This document shows positions 1-10,898 of a DNA stretch of 64,000 nt, in pieces. How positions within the stretch are numbered: the first letter of the stretch is position 1; the number at the start of each line of letters is the position of its first letter. The stretch spans positions 62,001 to 126,000 of the forward strand of contig JACOEM010000007.1 in the NCBI GenBank assembly GCA_024998565.1. Direction: 5' to 3'. The notes below the pieces were generated by a model that was not told the origin of the DNA, ran no database searches, and was given only the letters and a program-made list of their open reading frames with translations. The stretch is from Nitrospira sp. (GTDB lineage: Bacteria; Nitrospirota; Nitrospiria; Nitrospirales; Nitrospiraceae). Both the position numbers and the translations under genes were made by a program.

Positions 1-106
1 TAATCCCCGAGTCGTGCGGGGAAATAAGGTTGTGCCGATCCGGGTCTTAAGCCGATGAATATAGGAAATCATCGATTAGTCAGACAGTTAGTGTGATGAA
101 TTGCGC

Positions 107-122
107 AGGAACGAACGTTGCT
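107..122 (+). promoter_or_regulatory. Weak sigma-54-type promoter candidate before the LPP20 lipoprotein
   Basis: AGGAAC, five bases, then TTGCT gives the invariant GG-N10-GC spacing of -24/-12 promoters (GG at 108-109, GC at 120-121). Nine of eleven consensus positions match, which can happen by chance. It would place transcription start near 133, about 75 bases before the start codon at 208. It gains interest only because a sigma-54 activator is encoded 3 kb downstream. Confidence 0.25.
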
Positions 123-3902: not shown

Positions 3903-6707
3903 ATGCCTTCTCGGTGGATGATTGTCGGTGTAGTTGGGTTACTCGCGACGAGCCTGGTCTGGGGATTGACCACGATGCTCCCGCAATTGCTCGGGTCGTG
4001 GGAGATGGCGACATATGATCTCCGGATGCGCTGGCAGGGTGCGGGCAAAGCCGATCCTGCGATCGTGTTGATCGGGCGTGACGCGGAGAGCGATAGGCAG
4101 TTCGGGGCCGGGATCTGGGACCGCGCGGTCTTTGCCAAAATGATTGCCGCGCTAGGCCGGGCCGGCGCGCGAACCATCGCGCTCGATTTTCACATGCCCG
4201 ATGTCAGCCCGATGGAGCGCGGTAACGGGGCCAGTGATCGCGCCCTGATCGCGGCGACCAGTGGAGCTGGTACGGTGCTGTATCCGATGGCGGTCGCGTC
4301 GGCAGGTCAGGGGGTTACCGCCCCACCGACCCTTCCGGATGTGTTCAAGTCGATGATGCCCACATTCGATTCCCATGTGGTGGATGCGCTTCCGCAAGCC
4401 GTTCGTATCGAGGGCCCCTTTCTCGCGTTGTCTTCGGCAGCAGCCGGGGTCGGGCATATCGCCGCTTGGCCTGATGAAGACGGGGTCTATCGCCATGTAC
4501 CCACCTTTGTTGCAGTCGGAGGCCGAGCGGTGCCTGCCTTGGGTGTCGCGATGGCGGCGAGTGCCCTGCGTGTGCCTCCTGATCGTATTGAGCTGGGGCT
4601 AGGCGACGCGCTCCGGTTTCGCGACGCGCGTTTTCCAGATGGACGTCACCGGACCTTTTCGATACCGGTCGATGCCCAAGGGCGGCTGTTGATTCGCTAC
4701 ACAGGTCACTGGACCGACGGCGCCTTTCCCTACTTGTCGTTTGTTGATGTGTGGGAGGCGATTGCTGAGGGGCGCGAGGCAGAGCTACGGGAGCAGGTCG
4801 CGGGGAAGCTCGTGATCCTCGTGCATGCCGCGCTGGGGTCCGACAAGCGCCGAACACCCTATGAGGTGGACGCGCCGGGCGGCTTCATTCTGGCCAATGT
4901 CGCCAACACGATCCTAACCCAGCAGATCCTGCGCGAGCTTAGCACGTCAAACGGCTGGCTGGTGGCCTTCTTTCTAGGCCTGGGCGCCGCTGCCGCAATG
5001 ACGCTCCTTTCCGGATGGGGCGGACCAGTGGTGGCGGGTGCGCTGGGCCTGTCCTACGCGGCCACGACGTTTCTGGTCATGGGGTTCGGCGGGCTCGTCC
5101 TCCCTGTGCTCTCGCCGCTTGCGGCCTTGACCGTTGCGGCTCTGCTCTCGCTTGGCTGGACGCGGCAGCGTGCCACGGACCGTGTGAGCTACTTGGAGAA
5201 CGAGCAGCTTGCATTGCATCGTGCGCTGGCGACGAAACAAGTGTTACTTGCGCAGCAGGAAACCCGAGCGGATCAGTTGGAGGAAGACTTCGTGGCGGCG
5301 AAGGCGGATGCTGCGATGGGCGTCGATCGTCAGACGTTCTTCGAGCGGACGATCTCGTCATTGCAGCAGCAACTGCAGGCCGCGGAATGTGACGCCAACG
5401 AGACGAGGCTCGCGGTGAAGGAATTGGAGGGCAGGCTTGCGTCGATGAAGGCCGTGCAGCCAGGGCGTGGAGCGCTGGCCACAGAAGAGCAAGAGGAGGT
5501 CCAGCAGGAGTGCGCTCGGTATGGCATCGTCACCGGAGACCCTGCCTTGCTACAGTGCTGGAAGGACTTGAAACGTGCCGCTCGCAGCGAGGCGCCGATC
5601 CTCATCCTAGGCGAACCGGGAACCGGGAAGGAGTTGTTCGCCCAAGCCGTGCATCGATTCAGCGAGCGAGCAGCCAAGCCGTTCGTGGCGGTCAACATGG
5701 CGGCTGTGCCCCCGGACATCTTCGAAAGCCAACTCTACGGCCACCTTCGCGGTTCGTTCACCGGAGCGGTGCATGATCACGAGGGGTATTTCCTTCAGGC
5801 CGACAAGGGAACGATTTTTCTCGACGAGATCGGCGATCTGCGTTCCGACTTGCAGGCAAAATTACTGCGCGTTCTGCAGGAGGGAGTTGTTGCACGCGTC
5901 GGCGAGCGAAAGCCCGTTCGAGTGGATGTGCGTGTGGTTTCCGCGACGAATCGAGACCTCATGCGGGGCATTGCGGAAGGGTGGTTTCGAGAAGATCTCT
6001 ATTATCGGTTGCATGGAATCGAGTTGTATTTGCCGCCGCTGCGTGAACGACACAACGACATCGCGGAACTTGCAATGGCGTTTGTCGAGCAAGCCACAGC
6101 GAAGCGCGGCCGCACCCAGATGGTTCTCTCACAAGGGGCCATGGAGCGGCTCAAGGGGTGGCCCTGGAAGGGCAACGTGCGGGAGCTCAAACGGTGCCTC
6201 GAGAATGCCGTGATCTTGACGGACGGGCCCATGATCTTGGAACAAGATTTGCGATTGACCGGCCCAGCGGTTCTCACACCACGCGATACGACTGAGGTGC
6301 CGTCGGCCCTGTCGTCGGAGGCGGAGGGAGACCCACGGAAGAGCGATCAAGCGTTACTCCGGGTGCTCCGCGACCACAGCTTCGATTTACAGGCCACCGG
6401 CGCGACCCTCGGATGGGATCGCAGTACGGTGATGCAACGGTTAAAGGGCATGTGTTTCCAGGCTATGGTAGAAACCAAAGGCGATGAACGGGCGGCGGCA
6501 GCGAGTCTGGCGGGCGAACCGGGATTGACCAGACTGGTGGAGGTCAAGCTCAAAGAGTATGTCGAGCATCTGGGCAAAGTTGTGGCCACGTATCCCTCAA
6601 CGGAAGCTGCGCTGACCGGGTGCCGGAAGCGGTTTAAGAATCTGCCGGAGCGTTATCAGGAGGCGCTGGCGACGCTGGTCCGCCTCAACATGGAGGGTGG
6701 CGGGTAG
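3903..6707 (+). CDS. Membrane-anchored CHASE2 sigma-54 activator
   Basis: 934 residues. Order: N-terminal membrane helix (residues 5-25); extracytoplasmic CHASE2-like sensor (about 30-330); a cluster of membrane helices (about 348-425); coiled coil (427-516); AAA+ sigma-54 interaction domain (about 540-790) with Walker A GEPGTGKE (570-577), GSFTGA loop (617-622) in place of the usual GAFTGA, Walker B FLDEIGD and sensor SATNRD; then a Fis-like helix-turn-helix near 818-850 and an 80-residue extension. There is no receiver domain, so the signal should come through CHASE2 across the membrane. Known biology: such proteins remodel sigma-54 RNA polymerase by ATP hydrolysis. GAGGGTGATGTAGGAG precedes the ATG. 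Candidate sigma-54 promoters lie at 7750-7765 and 8946-8961, just downstream. Confidence 0.88.
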   Translation: MPSRWMIVGVVGLLATSLVWGLTTMLPQLLGSWEMATYDLRMRWQGAGKADPAIVLIGRDAESDRQFGAGIWDRAVFAKMIAALGRAGARTIALDFHMPDVSPMERGNGASDRALIAATSGAGTVLYPMAVASAGQGVTAPPTLPDVFKSMMPTFDSHVVDALPQAVRIEGPFLALSSAAAGVGHIAAWPDEDGVYRHVPTFVAVGGRAVPALGVAMAASALRVPPDRIELGLGDALRFRDARFPDGRHRTFSIPVDAQGRLLIRYTGHWTDGAFPYLSFVDVWEAIAEGREAELREQVAGKLVILVHAALGSDKRRTPYEVDAPGGFILANVANTILTQQILRELSTSNGWLVAFFLGLGAAAAMTLLSGWGGPVVAGALGLSYAATTFLVMGFGGLVLPVLSPLAALTVAALLSLGWTRQRATDRVSYLENEQLALHRALATKQVLLAQQETRADQLEEDFVAAKADAAMGVDRQTFFERTISSLQQQLQAAECDANETRLAVKELEGRLASMKAVQPGRGALATEEQEEVQQECARYGIVTGDPALLQCWKDLKRAARSEAPILILGEPGTGKELFAQAVHRFSERAAKPFVAVNMAAVPPDIFESQLYGHLRGSFTGAVHDHEGYFLQADKGTIFLDEIGDLRSDLQAKLLRVLQEGVVARVGERKPVRVDVRVVSATNRDLMRGIAEGWFREDLYYRLHGIELYLPPLRERHNDIAELAMAFVEQATAKRGRTQMVLSQGAMERLKGWPWKGNVRELKRCLENAVILTDGPMILEQDLRLTGPAVLTPRDTTEVPSALSSEAEGDPRKSDQALLRVLRDHSFDLQATGATLGWDRSTVMQRLKGMCFQAMVETKGDERAAAASLAGEPGLTRLVEVKLKEYVEHLGKVVATYPSTEAALTGCRKRFKNLPERYQEALATLVRLNMEGGG

Positions 6708-7297: not shown

Positions 7298-7345
7298 TGG
7301 AGGAGCAATGAGCTTGGATGCGCATTTACGCACAGTGGTCTCTCA

Positions 7346-7690
7346 CTAACGTGTGGATGGTGAATCTGAACAGGCCGCAGGGTTGGCCAGGCAGTAAAGC
7401 GCCAATAAGAACACGCCGGTCCCAACTACCTGCTCAGCCGTATCGTTGGCGCGGGACTGGCTCTGAGTCATGAGCCGGTTCGGTGCCACCCACTCCACGG
7501 CTCCGTTCAGATACCGCACTTTGACCCACCCGTTCTCTTTGCCCAGGACGACGACCAGCTGATTCTCGAAGAGGTGGTCCAGATAGTACGTGTCGCCCCG
7601 ATCGACGAAGCGATAGTCGGCAGCCTGACTGGTTACCGGCATGAGAAGTAAGAGGCTGCAAAGGCCAGCAATCAGGAATTTAGTCATCAT
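7346..7690 (-). CDS. Small exported protein with SH3-like region
   Basis: 114 residues on the minus strand. ATG 7690 follows AAGGAG with good spacing. A clear signal peptide ends at SQAADY (about residue 23). Residues 30-75 (TYYLDHLFENQLVVVLGKENGWVKVRY) look like a bacterial SH3 fold; a hydrophobic segment near residue 90 (TGVFLLALYCL) and a short Cys-containing tail follow. It faces the sigma-54 activator cluster and has its own -24/-12 type promoter match at 7750-7765. Function unknown; SH3-like domains often bind peptidoglycan or protein ligands in the envelope. Confidence 0.65.
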   Translation of the reverse strand: MMTKFLIAGLCSLLLLMPVTSQAADYRFVDRGDTYYLDHLFENQLVVVLGKENGWVKVRYLNGAVEWVAPNRLMTQSQSRANDTAEQVVGTGVFLLALYCLANPAACSDSPSTR

Positions 7691-7749
7691 GGCATTCTCC
7701 TTTTGTTTGGAACGTGGGTTTCGGTTCAATCGCAGTTGTTCCTGTGTTG

Positions 7750-7765
7750 AGCAAGGCGGGTGCCG
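7750..7765 (-). promoter_or_regulatory. Sigma-54-type promoter for the SH3-like gene
   Basis: On the minus strand the sequence reads CGGCAC, five bases, TTGCT. GG (7764-7763) and GC (7752-7751) are separated by exactly ten bases, and ten of eleven consensus positions match. Start of transcription would fall near 7739, about 50 bases before ATG 7690. Position, orientation and the nearby sigma-54 activator gene support it. Confidence 0.5.
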
Positions 7766-8126
7766 AGACCGTTTGAATGGGAATAGTCTCGCAAGGCATT
7801 GAGATGTAAGTGAAAAGTGGCTTCAGCCACTAAGAAGTCTCTGTGGGGAGATTCCGTCCGTTCCCGGCATGCTGCGGGGGTTCTGAAAGGATGCTCAAAA
7901 ATCCCAAGGTTGCAAGGGGCAGCCGCTCAGCGACAGAATCACGGATTTCTGCAGGATGGCTGATCGGCGCGGGAGAGGCTGCGGGAGGAATAGGGGGTTC
8001 AATAAGCTGGGGGATATCTGAGGGTAGCGGTAGGGCTATCCTACGACCATTGTCACATAAGATTTAGTCCTCAGAAGGATACTGGCCTGCCTGAGTCAGC
8101 CGGGCTTAGGCGCGAAGTAGCCAAGT
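7766..8126. other. Gap of about 360 bases with no supported gene
   Basis: A 74-codon rightward frame (7843-8067) has no ribosome-binding site and a Gly/Ser-rich composition typical of non-coding GC-rich DNA. Nothing else stands out. Confidence 0.4.
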
Positions 8127-8748
8127 ATGGTCTGCTTTCCCGCCAAGGTCGCACAGGATTTTGTGGAGGTAATTCAGAGCCAGAAGGGCTCGTTGTATCG
8201 CGATGTGACGGCCAAGGTCCTCACCGACGGCGGGGCGACCAAGGATGAAATACTCGATGGTCTGGACTGATGGTGCCAATGGCGTTTGCTGTTTCTTGCC
8301 GACGAATGCCAATCCGGACAAGCTGCTGCGGACCGGCGTGGTCTTCTCCGACATTAAGAACCCCTTGGCCTCGATTGCTGGCAAGGCGCTGTTTTTCGTG
8401 GATACCTGCCATCCCGGCAATATCATGGGTGCCAGGCGGGGTGTCGCGGACATTAACGTCGTGGTCAACGAGCTGGCCAGCGCCGAAACGGCGCAGTGGT
8501 CTTTGCCTCCTCGACTGGCAGGCAATATTCGCTGGAAGATCAAGCCTGGGGAAACGGGGTCTTTAATAAGGCGTTGGTGGAAGGCCTGGGCGGCAAGGCA
8601 GACGATACGAGCAAGGGCACGATCAGCATCAACATGCTGGATCTGTATCTCTCCGAGCGAGTGAAGCAACTCACCGGCGGCAAGCAGACCCCCAGGGACC
8701 ACCAAACCCAACACCGTTCCAGACTTCCCGATCACCCTGCGGCGCTGA
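8127..8748 (+). pseudogene. Decayed caspase-like (peptidase C14) gene fragment
   Basis: Three reading frames must be joined to read it. Frame A (8127-8270) gives FVEVIQSQKGSLYRDV and ATKDEILDGLD then a stop. Frame B (about 8271-8500) gives ANGVCCFLP, LLRTGVVFSDIKNPLASIAG and ALFFVDTCHPGN. Frame A resumes at 8496 (FASSTGRQYSLEDQAWGNG, TISINMLDLYLSERV). A last shift yields TVPDFPITLRR and a stop at 8746-8748. DTCHPG is the catalytic-Cys block of caspase-fold peptidases (usually DTCHSG). The stretch that normally carries the catalytic His-Gly is missing at the first junction, and the N-terminus is absent. So the gene is dead: truncated, internally deleted and frameshifted at least three times. 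Confidence 0.8.
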
Positions 8749-8945
8749 GGCCGGTCCAACCGTTTTTGGCCTCTTCTTCCCTGCAGGGCGCGGCGAGCTC
8801 CTCCATTTTGCGGGGACGCCGCTCGCCTGGAATGGCAATGGCGTCAGCTTCCTCCTCCCGCTTTTTCTCGAGGGTTCCTCGGATACACTCGGTTTCACAA
8901 GAGATTTTGACGTAGTGCCCCGAATCATCTCCTGCGTGGACCCGC

Positions 8946-8961
8946 TGGCACTAGGATTGCG
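8946..8961 (+). promoter_or_regulatory. Sigma-54-type promoter for the small membrane ORF
   Basis: TGGCAC (8946-8951), TAGGA, TTGC (8957-8960): every core position of the -24/-12 consensus is present, with GG-N10-GC spacing. Predicted transcription start near 8972, thirty bases before a start codon at 9002 that has a good ribosome-binding site. A sigma-54 activator gene lies 2.2 kb upstream. Confidence 0.55.
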
Positions 8962-9001
8962 GTATCGCATTGGCATAACCCACTACGAAATGGAGGATGC
9001 C

Positions 9002-9106
9002 ATGTTGGAACTCGCGCTCATCGTCTCGATCAGCATCCTGGCAGCACTGGATTTCCTGAACGTGGGGTCGGACGCAGATGGCCCACAGTCCCTTCAGCAT
9101 GAATAA
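9002..9106 (+). CDS. 34-residue membrane peptide
   Basis: ATG 9002 follows GGAGG (8992-8996) by five bases. Residues 2-19 (LELALIVSISILAALDFL) form one hydrophobic helix, followed by a short acidic tail. It stands directly behind a sigma-54-type promoter and 39 bases before the next, frame-broken gene. Too short for family assignment. The combination of promoter, ribosome-binding site and membrane helix makes it more than a chance frame. Confidence 0.5.
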   Translation: MLELALIVSISILAALDFLNVGSDADGPQSLQHE

Positions 9107-9145
9107 CGCAGGACGTGTCTGAATTTTCACCACAGGAGGTGTCTC

Positions 9146-9537
9146 GTGGGAAACTTTATCCTTGGGGCGATTGTTGCAGTGCTGGGGCTTGCGTATGTCG
9201 GAGGCTGGGACCGGGGAATGAAGCGGTTGGTCACATCGTCGAGGTGCATCAGGTCGCGGACGTGGGCCTCATCAACGGTGAGCCGGACGCGGGTGTGCGC
9301 GTGAAGACGACCATCAGGAATGAGGGGAAAGAAGGGTTCCTTCGCGTGAAGGCACGATTGTCCAGTTCAGAGGGAGAATGGACCCGCGAGCAGAAGCTCC
9401 ATTTCGATAGCGGTGAATCCAAAGAGCTGGCGTGGTTTTTTAGTGAACCCTCGGTCAACGCGTCCAACGTTCAGTCCTGGGTGGAAGTATCGCCTGGTGT
9501 CAGCTCGGTACAGGAATCAAAAAGAAAGGCGATCTGA
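9146..9537 (+). pseudogene. Frame-broken small membrane-anchored protein gene
   Basis: GTG 9146 has an excellent ribosome-binding site (AGGAGGTGTCT, 9135-9145) and starts a hydrophobic segment (GNFILGAIVAVLGLAYVGG). That frame stops at 9302-9304. A second frame (-1 relative to the first) carries protein-like sequence to 9537: VHQVADVGLINGEPDAGV, then TTIRNEGKEGFLRVKARLS and ESKELAWFF. Joining them between about 9217 and 9240 would give a roughly 130-residue anchored protein with a beta-rich domain. I see no classic slippery heptamer, so a mutation or sequencing error is more likely than programmed shifting. No family recognised. Confidence 0.5.
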
Positions 9538-9683
9538 CACTACAGGTACGAATGGGGCCTGCTGCCTTCTGCTACAGCTGATCGGCTTCCGCTGTAGCGC
9601 CGCTCCACGGGTATGACCGGCGGCGACCTCACGCGGAGCCCGTAACACCTTCACATTCACCTCTTCCTTGCTAATAGCCACTC

Positions 9684-9699
9684 AGGCATTGCCTTTGCT
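9684..9699 (+). promoter_or_regulatory. Weak -24/-12 match before the FBP aldolase/phosphatase gene
   Basis: AGGCAT, five bases, TTGCT: GG (9685-9686) and GC (9697-9698) have the right ten-base spacing, nine of eleven positions match. It lies 87 bases before the start codon. A chance match is quite possible. Confidence 0.2.
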
Positions 9700-9785
9700 C
9701 ATTCCGAGATGAGGACCTTCCAGGGCCGACGCTGGAGATTCGGCGCAGAGGCCAGCAACCAGGCTTTATCACCCAGAGGTGCAAC

Positions 9786-10898
9786 ATGGCAGCGGAGAGC
9801 TCACAGACCATCACGTTGAGTGTGATCAAGGCGGACATCGGCGGCTTCGTCGGGCATTCGGCTATGCATCCGGCCTTGATGGATTGCGCAAGGGAGAAGC
9901 TTGCGGCGGCGAAAAGCGGCGGGCTGCTCGTCGATTACCATGTGTCGGCCTGCGGCGATGACTTGCAGCTCATCATGACGCATCGTCACGGCGTGGATCA
10001 CGAGCGGATCCACCGTCTTGCCTGGGATACATTCGAGGCCGGCACTGCCGTCGCGAAGGAACTGCATCTCTACGGCGCAGGGCAGGATCTGCTGGCCGAT
10101 GCCTTCAGTGGAAATGTGCGGGGGCAGGGGCCGGGCGTGGCCGAGATGGAGTTTGTGGAACGGAAGTCCGATCCGGTGCTGATTTTCATGGCGGACAAGA
10201 CGTCGGCGGGTGCCTGGAATCTCCCCCTGTACAAGATGTTCGCCGATCCGTTCAATACGGCGGGTCTCGTCATTGCGCCCACGCTGCACCAGGGATTCCG
10301 GTTCGAGGTGCACGATATCTACGAGCACAAGAAGATCTTGTTCGATTGTCCCGAAGAACTCTACGACATGTTGATGTTCATCGGGTCCCCCGGTACGTAC
10401 ACGATCAAGTACGTGTACTCACGGGCGGACGGGACGATTGCGGCGGCCTCGTCGACGGAGCGGCTCTCGCTCATTGCGGGCAAGTATGTCGGGAAAGACG
10501 ACCCGGTGATGATCGTCCGCGCGCAGCAGAACTTTCCAGCGGTGGGCGAAGTGCTCGATCCGTTCCGGTATCCCTGGATCATCGAGGGCTGGATGCGTGG
10601 TTCGCATTACGGTCCGCTCATGCCGGTCTCGGTGAAGCAGGCGACGCCGACCCGCTTCGATGGGCCTCCGCGCGTCGCCTGTCTGGGATTTCAATTGGCT
10701 GACGGCAAACTCGTCGGGCCGCGGGATATGTTCGACGATCCGTCGTATGATGAAGCGCGCCGGGATGCGAACCGGATCGCCGATGTGTTACGGATGCACG
10801 GTCCCTTTGAACCGCACCGGTTGCCCCTCGACGACATGGAGTACACGACCATGCCGCAGATTATGAAGAAGTTGGAAGGTCGCTGGGCAACGGTGTAG
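9786..10898 (+). CDS. fbp: Fructose-1,6-bisphosphate aldolase/phosphatase (archaeal type)
   Basis: 370 residues, the usual length of the bifunctional FBPA/P family. The enzyme joins dihydroxyacetone phosphate and glyceraldehyde 3-phosphate and then removes the C1 phosphate, giving fructose 6-phosphate; this makes gluconeogenesis one-way. Visible marks: KADIGGFVGH near residues 15-24 (metal ligands), CGDDLQLIMTH (56-66), DPFNTAGL, and GKYVGKDDP, where Tyr234 and Lys237 match the known Tyr/Schiff-base Lys pair spaced by three. The ribosome-binding signal is modest (AGAGG before ATG). A cupin gene follows 16 bases on. The family is typical of Archaea and deep-branching, often autotrophic, bacteria, which suits an autotroph that needs anabolic sugar synthesis. 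Confidence 0.95.
   Translation: MAAESSQTITLSVIKADIGGFVGHSAMHPALMDCAREKLAAAKSGGLLVDYHVSACGDDLQLIMTHRHGVDHERIHRLAWDTFEAGTAVAKELHLYGAGQDLLADAFSGNVRGQGPGVAEMEFVERKSDPVLIFMADKTSAGAWNLPLYKMFADPFNTAGLVIAPTLHQGFRFEVHDIYEHKKILFDCPEELYDMLMFIGSPGTYTIKYVYSRADGTIAAASSTERLSLIAGKYVGKDDPVMIVRAQQNFPAVGEVLDPFRYPWIIEGWMRGSHYGPLMPVSVKQATPTRFDGPPRVACLGFQLADGKLVGPRDMFDDPSYDEARRDANRIADVLRMHGPFEPHRLPLDDMEYTTMPQIMKKLEGRWATV

Follow-up and report, generated by a model that had tools for sequence, protein, structure and literature searches.

Bacteria of the genus Nitrospira are central to nitrification. In the 64,000-nucleotide stretch of a Nitrospira genome analysed here (the window), a 34-residue membrane peptide appears to belong to a local regulon that was overlooked in the preliminary description of this DNA. 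We consider it quite likely that a CHASE2-AAA+ activator governs this regulon through three sigma-54-type promoters (P1, P2 and P3), and that an operon encoding the peptide and a putative beta-sandwich protein is one of its outputs. The operon comprises the following elements:

8946..8960, forward strand: predicted sigma-54 -24/-12 promoter core P3, TGGCACTAGGATTGC, which heads the peptide operon
8992..8996, forward strand: ribosome-binding site GGAGG, 5 nt 5' of the ATG
9002..9106, forward strand: ORF of the 34-residue one-helix membrane peptide, MLELALIVSISILAALDFLNVGSDADGPQSLQHE
9146..9537, forward strand: second operon gene, coding for a one-helix membrane protein with a predicted beta-sandwich domain

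The preliminary description had reported TGGCAC-N5-TTGC at 8946–8960, a GGAGG and an ORF with one hydrophobic helix, all of which are present as described. The ORF extends from the ATG at 9002 over 34 codons to a stop ending at 9106, while the 30-base length given for the leader presumes the predicted transcript start near 8972. Sigma-54 recognizes the consensus TGGCAY-N5-TTGC, with GG and GC at fixed spacing. The exact TGGCAC-N5-TTGC has a single match in the whole window, and the couple of equally good chance matches previously estimated per 64 kb is too many, since ten fixed bases arithmetically give about 0.12 on both strands. With up to one mismatch, seven matches were found in the window versus 4.6 expected. 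Taken alone, the motif is therefore weak evidence that proves little. Genome-wide, 32 TGGCAY-N5-TTGC sites were detected (versus 12 for a reversed-pattern control).

The seven one-mismatch matches would suit the view that a chance motif lies beside a meaningless short ORF, but the comparison with relatives leaves this view a negligible probability and effectively refutes it. Searching 29 genomes of the genus with positions 8700–9560 gave matches in seven, the window genome included, and five of the 29 carry the peptide together with the site. In these five genomes both half-sites of the -24/-12 core are intact (TGGCA[CT]-N5-TTGC), the GGAGG is present, the distance from core to ATG is 41 or 42 nt and the peptide is exactly 34 residues long. 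Alignment of promoter and peptide across relatives, which the preliminary description had proposed as a check, thus speaks for its reading. Between the window and G018, 16 of the 20 positions of the promoter block (8943–8962) are identical, versus 30 of 122 in the preceding spacer (8821–8942) and 13 of 28 in the leader; relative to G005 the contrast is small (15/20 versus 75/122 in the spacer). Conservation, rather than motif score, is what raises the predicted promoter above chance. Sigma-54 itself (RpoN, PF04552) scored over the cut-off in 29 of the 29 genus genomes, and the gene of a probable activator lies about 2.2 kb upstream of P3. The earlier proposal of a sigma-54-type promoter in front of a small one-helix membrane peptide is supported on all these counts. 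Scans of 8600–9800 found no sigma-70-type promoter (0.6 expected by chance) and no terminator (1.2 expected by chance), and both results are hence uninformative.

Might the conserved block instead be a leader of the ordinary kind, or extend the peptide N-terminally from GTG 8915, with the -24/-12 likeness as a by-product? The frame is open from 8915 in the window genome. However, the leader measures 41 nt here and 42 nt in G018, which shifts the frame, and its poor conservation is set against TGGCA and TTGC bases that are invariant in five genomes. The extension was rejected on account of the leader indel and the poor leader conservation, and we regard this reading as very improbable.

The best 19-residue mean hydropathy of the peptide is 2.21, and 15 of its residues are invariant among the five genomes. 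In the peptide frame, dN/dS ranges from 0.08 to 0.40 over ten genome pairs, whereas the two alternative frames, compared over five pairs, give about 0.7 or higher; judged by these substitutions, the peptide is under purifying selection. Three of the peptide loci lie on Nitrospira MAG contigs (WYAX01000014.1, JACOEL010000008.1 and JACQHN010000528.1). When a peptide profile was run against 235 genomes of the order, strong full-length matches (E 1e-21 or better) came from five, namely the window genome, G002, G005, G006 and G018. Weak matches in 17 further genomes (E 0.003–0.085) were considered as distant relatives and treated as chance: 16 of them cover part of the profile and one, in G044, covers the whole profile with an insertion. 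When these 17 loci were scanned loosely on both strands, three had a site-like match, in no case upstream of the peptide match. Across the genomes searched, the module is thus lineage-restricted within Nitrospira.

The window-genome peptide contains no lysine or arginine and has an acidic tail, which suggests that its C-terminus is exported. It matched no NCBIfam family at E 0.01, and the G018 variant, compared with Pfam, hit only Hol_Tox (PF16935; E 0.075). This weak match would fit a peptide that acts as a small holin-like toxin or as an addiction element instead of a stress accessory, as would the shortness of the peptide, its one helix and its patchy distribution. The Hol_Tox score, however, is 13.3 bits against a curated cut-off of 23.3, and a holin-like toxin identity was rejected for that reason. 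The lysine- and arginine-free, acidic-tailed peptide of the window genome and its conserved operon partner also argue against a toxin, as does an Rfam scan of 7300–9800 to E 1 that returned no structured-RNA match. We hold the toxin reading to be decidedly improbable.

From the arrangement of the locus, the peptide is the first gene of a predicted two-gene operon, another feature overlooked in the preliminary description. The second gene encodes 130 aa in G005, G006 and G018 and 147 aa in G002, in each case without interruption; GGAGA precedes it in G002 and GGAGG in the other four genomes. The window copy matches in two frames (9146–9220 and 9205–9531), as a one-base loss near 9207 splits the gene; the four relatives with the operon are unaffected. 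This loss may represent true decay or a base-calling error. Second-protein matches were found in 8 of the 235 genomes of the order. Outside the genus these are G076 and G095, and reading of their two loci revealed neither a sigma-54 site nor the peptide. The predicted structure of the protein has a mean pLDDT of 67.2. Fold searches with this model gave a best Foldseek E of 5.8e-3 and a best VIA Z of 8.3 (rmsd 2.3, 82 aligned), with CARDB, DUF1425 and other Ig-like folds as candidates; that is, the structure searches point only to a common beta-sandwich.

The probable activator is encoded upstream of the operon:

3903..6707, forward strand: protein with a CHASE2 sensor, an AAA+ sigma-54 interaction domain and a C-terminal region that reads as helix-turn-helix-like

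Its CHASE2 domain was recognized at E 2.8e-38 and its Sigma54_activat domain, the AAA+ sigma-54 interaction domain by which a bEBP is identified, at E 9.4e-63. The canonical loop of bEBPs is GAFTGA; here it reads GSFTGA. Using the N-terminal 466 residues as query, we obtained matches of 49–100% identity in exactly the five peptide genomes, a raw count that ignores kinship. None of the 24 genus genomes without the peptide has a close orthologue: 20 of them contain some match at E 1e-20 or better, at 28–41% identity, and four contain none. For G005 continuity was assumed, as the N-terminal part of the activator is on contig C15 and the C-terminal part opens the contig (C2) of the peptide. PADLOC placed RtcR-like models on the AAA+ part of the activator, caspase models on two G018 proteins and protease models on 1597–2673, all at domain level. 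The nearby CHASE2-AAA+ activator probably switches on the peptide promoter; the link between activator and P3 rests on their co-occurrence and on shared palindromes, to which binding is predicted. The sites concerned are:

4..23, forward strand: candidate UAS of P1, TCCCCGAGTCGTGCGGGGAA, found by motif scan and conserved in G006 and G018
107..121, forward strand: P1, a weak sigma-54-like site in front of an LPP20-like lipoprotein gene (208–840); sequence AGGAACGAACGTTGC
7346..7690, reverse strand: SH3-like protein with an N-terminal signal-like helix (SH3_3 E 1.3e-4, below the cut-off)
7751..7765, reverse strand: P2, the sigma-54-like site of the SH3 gene, CGGCACCCGCCTTGC, identical in G005 and TGGCATTTCTCTTGC in G018 and G002
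7861..7880, reverse strand: candidate UAS of P2, one mismatch, with a copy in 4/4 genomes that have the SH3 gene
8777..8816, forward strand: candidate UAS of P3, consisting of palindrome TTCCCTGCAGGGCGCGGCGA at 8777–8796 (one mismatch) and a degenerate second copy ending TGCGGGGA

Four of the 29 genus genomes have the SH3 gene, and all four carry the peptide. The P1 core departs from the consensus at two bases, reading GGAAC-N5-TTGC in the window genome, G006 and G018, and the P2 core at one. We defined the palindrome from the regions upstream of P2 and P3; the half-sites as first drawn formed no pair 5' of P2 in the window genome and in G005, and the motif was recast as TYCCC-N10-GGGRA. As such it is not enriched, with 12 occurrences in the window at up to one mismatch versus 11.0 expected. 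Its position is what distinguishes the locus: a palindrome starts 60–200 nt upstream of the -24 element in 12 of 12 examined promoters of the locus (P1 in the window genome, G006 and G018; P2 in the window genome, G005, G018 and G002; P3 in all five), although nine of these cases helped to define the motif, which leaves just the three at P1 as out-of-sample cases. The hit at 4–23 in fact led to the discovery of P1. At P3 a copy starts 140–169 nt upstream of -24 in 5/5 genomes. For the window genome the upstream palindrome (8777–8796) was counted, its downstream copy being degenerate here and better preserved in relatives. None of the 31 other TGGCAY-N5-TTGC sites of the window genome has the palindrome upstream, and in 69 loci of three other peptide families it accompanied 1 of 100 sites (0/53, 0/34 and 1/13 by family; own copies counted, sites up to 200 nt from a locus end excluded).

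The near absence of the palindrome from those other families means that other activators are likely to exist in the genome, which also has many sigma-54-like sites. P3 and the peptide could accordingly be real sigma-54 elements driven by a different activator, with the CHASE2 protein serving only its neighbouring genes. Against this stand the marking of P1–P3 by the palindrome among the examined sites and the distribution of the close activator orthologue, present in 5/5 genomes with the peptide and 0/24 without, and we think a different activator unlikely. In the CHASE2-activator regulon that we favour, the membrane-bound protein would perceive a signal outside the cytoplasm, bind the palindromic enhancers about 100–170 nt upstream of the three local promoters and drive sigma-54 RNA polymerase at P1, P2 and P3. 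From P3, the operon of the acidic 34-residue one-helix peptide and the one-helix beta-sandwich protein would be transcribed. The latter would be exported, and the peptide might act as a membrane-embedded partner or feedback modulator, either of the beta-sandwich protein or of the membrane helices of the activator. Such a regulon could serve an envelope-stress response, and the locus offers a testable set of membrane sensor, enhancer and three promoters.

The gene order of the window (lipoprotein, protease, activator, SH3 protein, WD40/caspase genes, peptide operon) is the same in G018. One of these genes is no longer complete in the window:

8136..8748, forward strand: remains of a broken WD40-caspase gene (peptidase C14), with an 82–87% DNA match to the uninterrupted gene of G018 and G002

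The G018 caspase protein matches Peptidase_C14 at E 6.9e-18. Stages of decay of this gene can be followed among the genomes: G018 and G002 have it uninterrupted, in the window it is broken, G006 has a shorter piece and G005 almost nothing. Given the frameshift in the second operon gene and the broken caspase gene, the function may be fading in the window genome. Downstream of the peptide operon of G018 (locus L014, from 7937), the translations of several ORFs read as integrase-, HNH- and terminase-like, giving this region a prophage-like appearance.

Absence of the ORF in a close relative with a conserved flank had been named in the preliminary description as a finding that would count against it. 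Such a case exists. G028 lacks both promoter and peptide; from 9403 onwards its flank shows 94% identity, the highest similarity among six loci compared. However, the absence appears to be a secondary deletion, because a stump of the second gene (47 C-terminal residues) remains and the close activator orthologue is missing as well. G028 also lacks the SH3 gene, and the pattern fits a loss of the whole module.

In the phage-shock (Psp) response (PspF, pspABCDE, pspG), small inner-membrane proteins are produced under sigma-54 control. The locus resembles that system as a sigma-54 regulon with a small membrane protein, and would work like a Psp-type switch, yet it lies outside the Psp system, and the kinship with phage shock suggested earlier could not be upheld. 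PspA was over its family cut-off in 0/29 genus genomes, with two weak sub-cut-off hits (G004 and G016); as a control, the model was detected in 9 of 14 known genomes. The activator carries CHASE2 and reached 226.4 bits with the PspF equivalog TIGR02974 (cut-off 443.55), and the peptide showed no likeness to PspB, PspC, PspD or PspG (window copy versus NCBIfam, G018 variant versus Pfam). Membership was rejected on these three grounds. According to PMC2763126, the Psp response answers membrane stress.

Sigma-54 is treated as a controller of the bacterial exterior in passages of Francke et al. 2011 (PMC3162934), and the local targets, a lipoprotein, an SH3 protein and a membrane peptide, look envelope-directed in the same sense; tiny membrane peptides and a CHASE2 activator are not described in those passages. 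Activator, sigma-54 promoter and regulon were likewise read from genomes in the sigma-54 regulon reconstruction excerpted from PMC6615313, there for Clostridiales, a different phylum. The part of PMC3501461 consulted deals with caspase homologues of prokaryotes that carry WD40 or CHASE2 domains, and WD40, caspase and CHASE2 domains likewise come together in the G018 locus; the present case differs in that CHASE2 forms one protein with a sigma-54 activator and in that the window has a broken caspase gene. In the passages of the open-licence PMC literature that were searched (including PMC3162934, PMC8195603 and PMC3501461), we found little on sigma-54 control in Nitrospira, and nothing on a CHASE2 sigma-54 activator or on sigma-54-controlled small membrane peptides in this genus.

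Besides the focal peptide, several of the 32 TGGCAY-N5-TTGC sites of the window genome precede short hydrophobic ORFs. A ribosome-binding site and a membrane micro-ORF come after five of the 32 (four with a stricter hydropathy limit), whereas the rate over all window positions is 0.25%. An intergenic mask, crude and rough on 3-kb pieces, gave 2 of 14 versus 1.0% (P 0.009). That is, the enrichment is strong against all positions and modest against a rough intergenic background. Three further peptide families were searched for at E 0.01 across the 29 genus genomes. A 31-residue one-helix peptide ending in CPTDCH (own copy C7:40437-40529, reverse strand; locus L068, C7:38500-42900) occurs in 27 genomes; its sigma-54 site is 27 nt upstream, and it adjoins genes reading as universal-stress proteins. 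All but one of the 27 copies end in CH, and the CX3CH-like end possibly binds heme or metal. The 33-residue peptide MVRMIKKVGDRELAWVMLAIAAVALWSTWGLAS, also with a sigma-54 site, is found in 25 genomes at 63–100% identity (C2:1180-1278 of the window genome, forward strand; locus L056, C2:100-3000). For a 40-residue peptide (C1:84212-84331, forward strand; locus L053, C1:83100-86000), 17 genomes gave matches, nine at E 1e-11 or better and eight weaker, one of these with an internal stop; its site reads TGGCAYGAGGGTTGC in the window genome and several relatives. None of the three peptides matched Pfam at E 0.01.

A -24/-12 site lies upstream of every copy of the 31-, 33- and 40-residue peptides (27/27, 25/25 and 17/17); by shuffling of the upstream sequences, 0.12, 0.08 and 0.14 would be expected. 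A site was counted if it lay within 160 nt upstream, retained GG and GC and differed in the core by no more than one base, C/T variation at the end of the -24 hexamer being allowed in addition. Our case for a wider pattern rests on the conservation of these families rather than on the micro-ORF count. Seen in this way, the focal peptide is a lineage-restricted case of something more general in Nitrospira, which the preliminary description had overlooked. With expectation and doubt evenly balanced, we propose that sigma-54 constitutes a dedicated control layer for at least four kinds of familyless one-helix peptides of 31–40 residues, three of them widespread in the genus, under different activators; in one lineage, the CHASE2-AAA+ activator would drive the peptide and its beta-sandwich partner as the output of CHASE2/WD40-caspase envelope sensing. 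Peptides of 31–40 residues are easily missed by gene callers, and a conserved sigma-54 promoter provides a route to finding them together with a prediction of when they are made. The three genus-wide peptides are candidate membrane or respiratory accessories. Elsewhere in the window genome, a stretch of about 7.5 kb in locus L067 (C6:198000-212000) has four sigma-54-like sites, one of them preceding a lipoprotein-like ORF of 58 aa and another preceding an ORF that reads as a CBS-domain protein.
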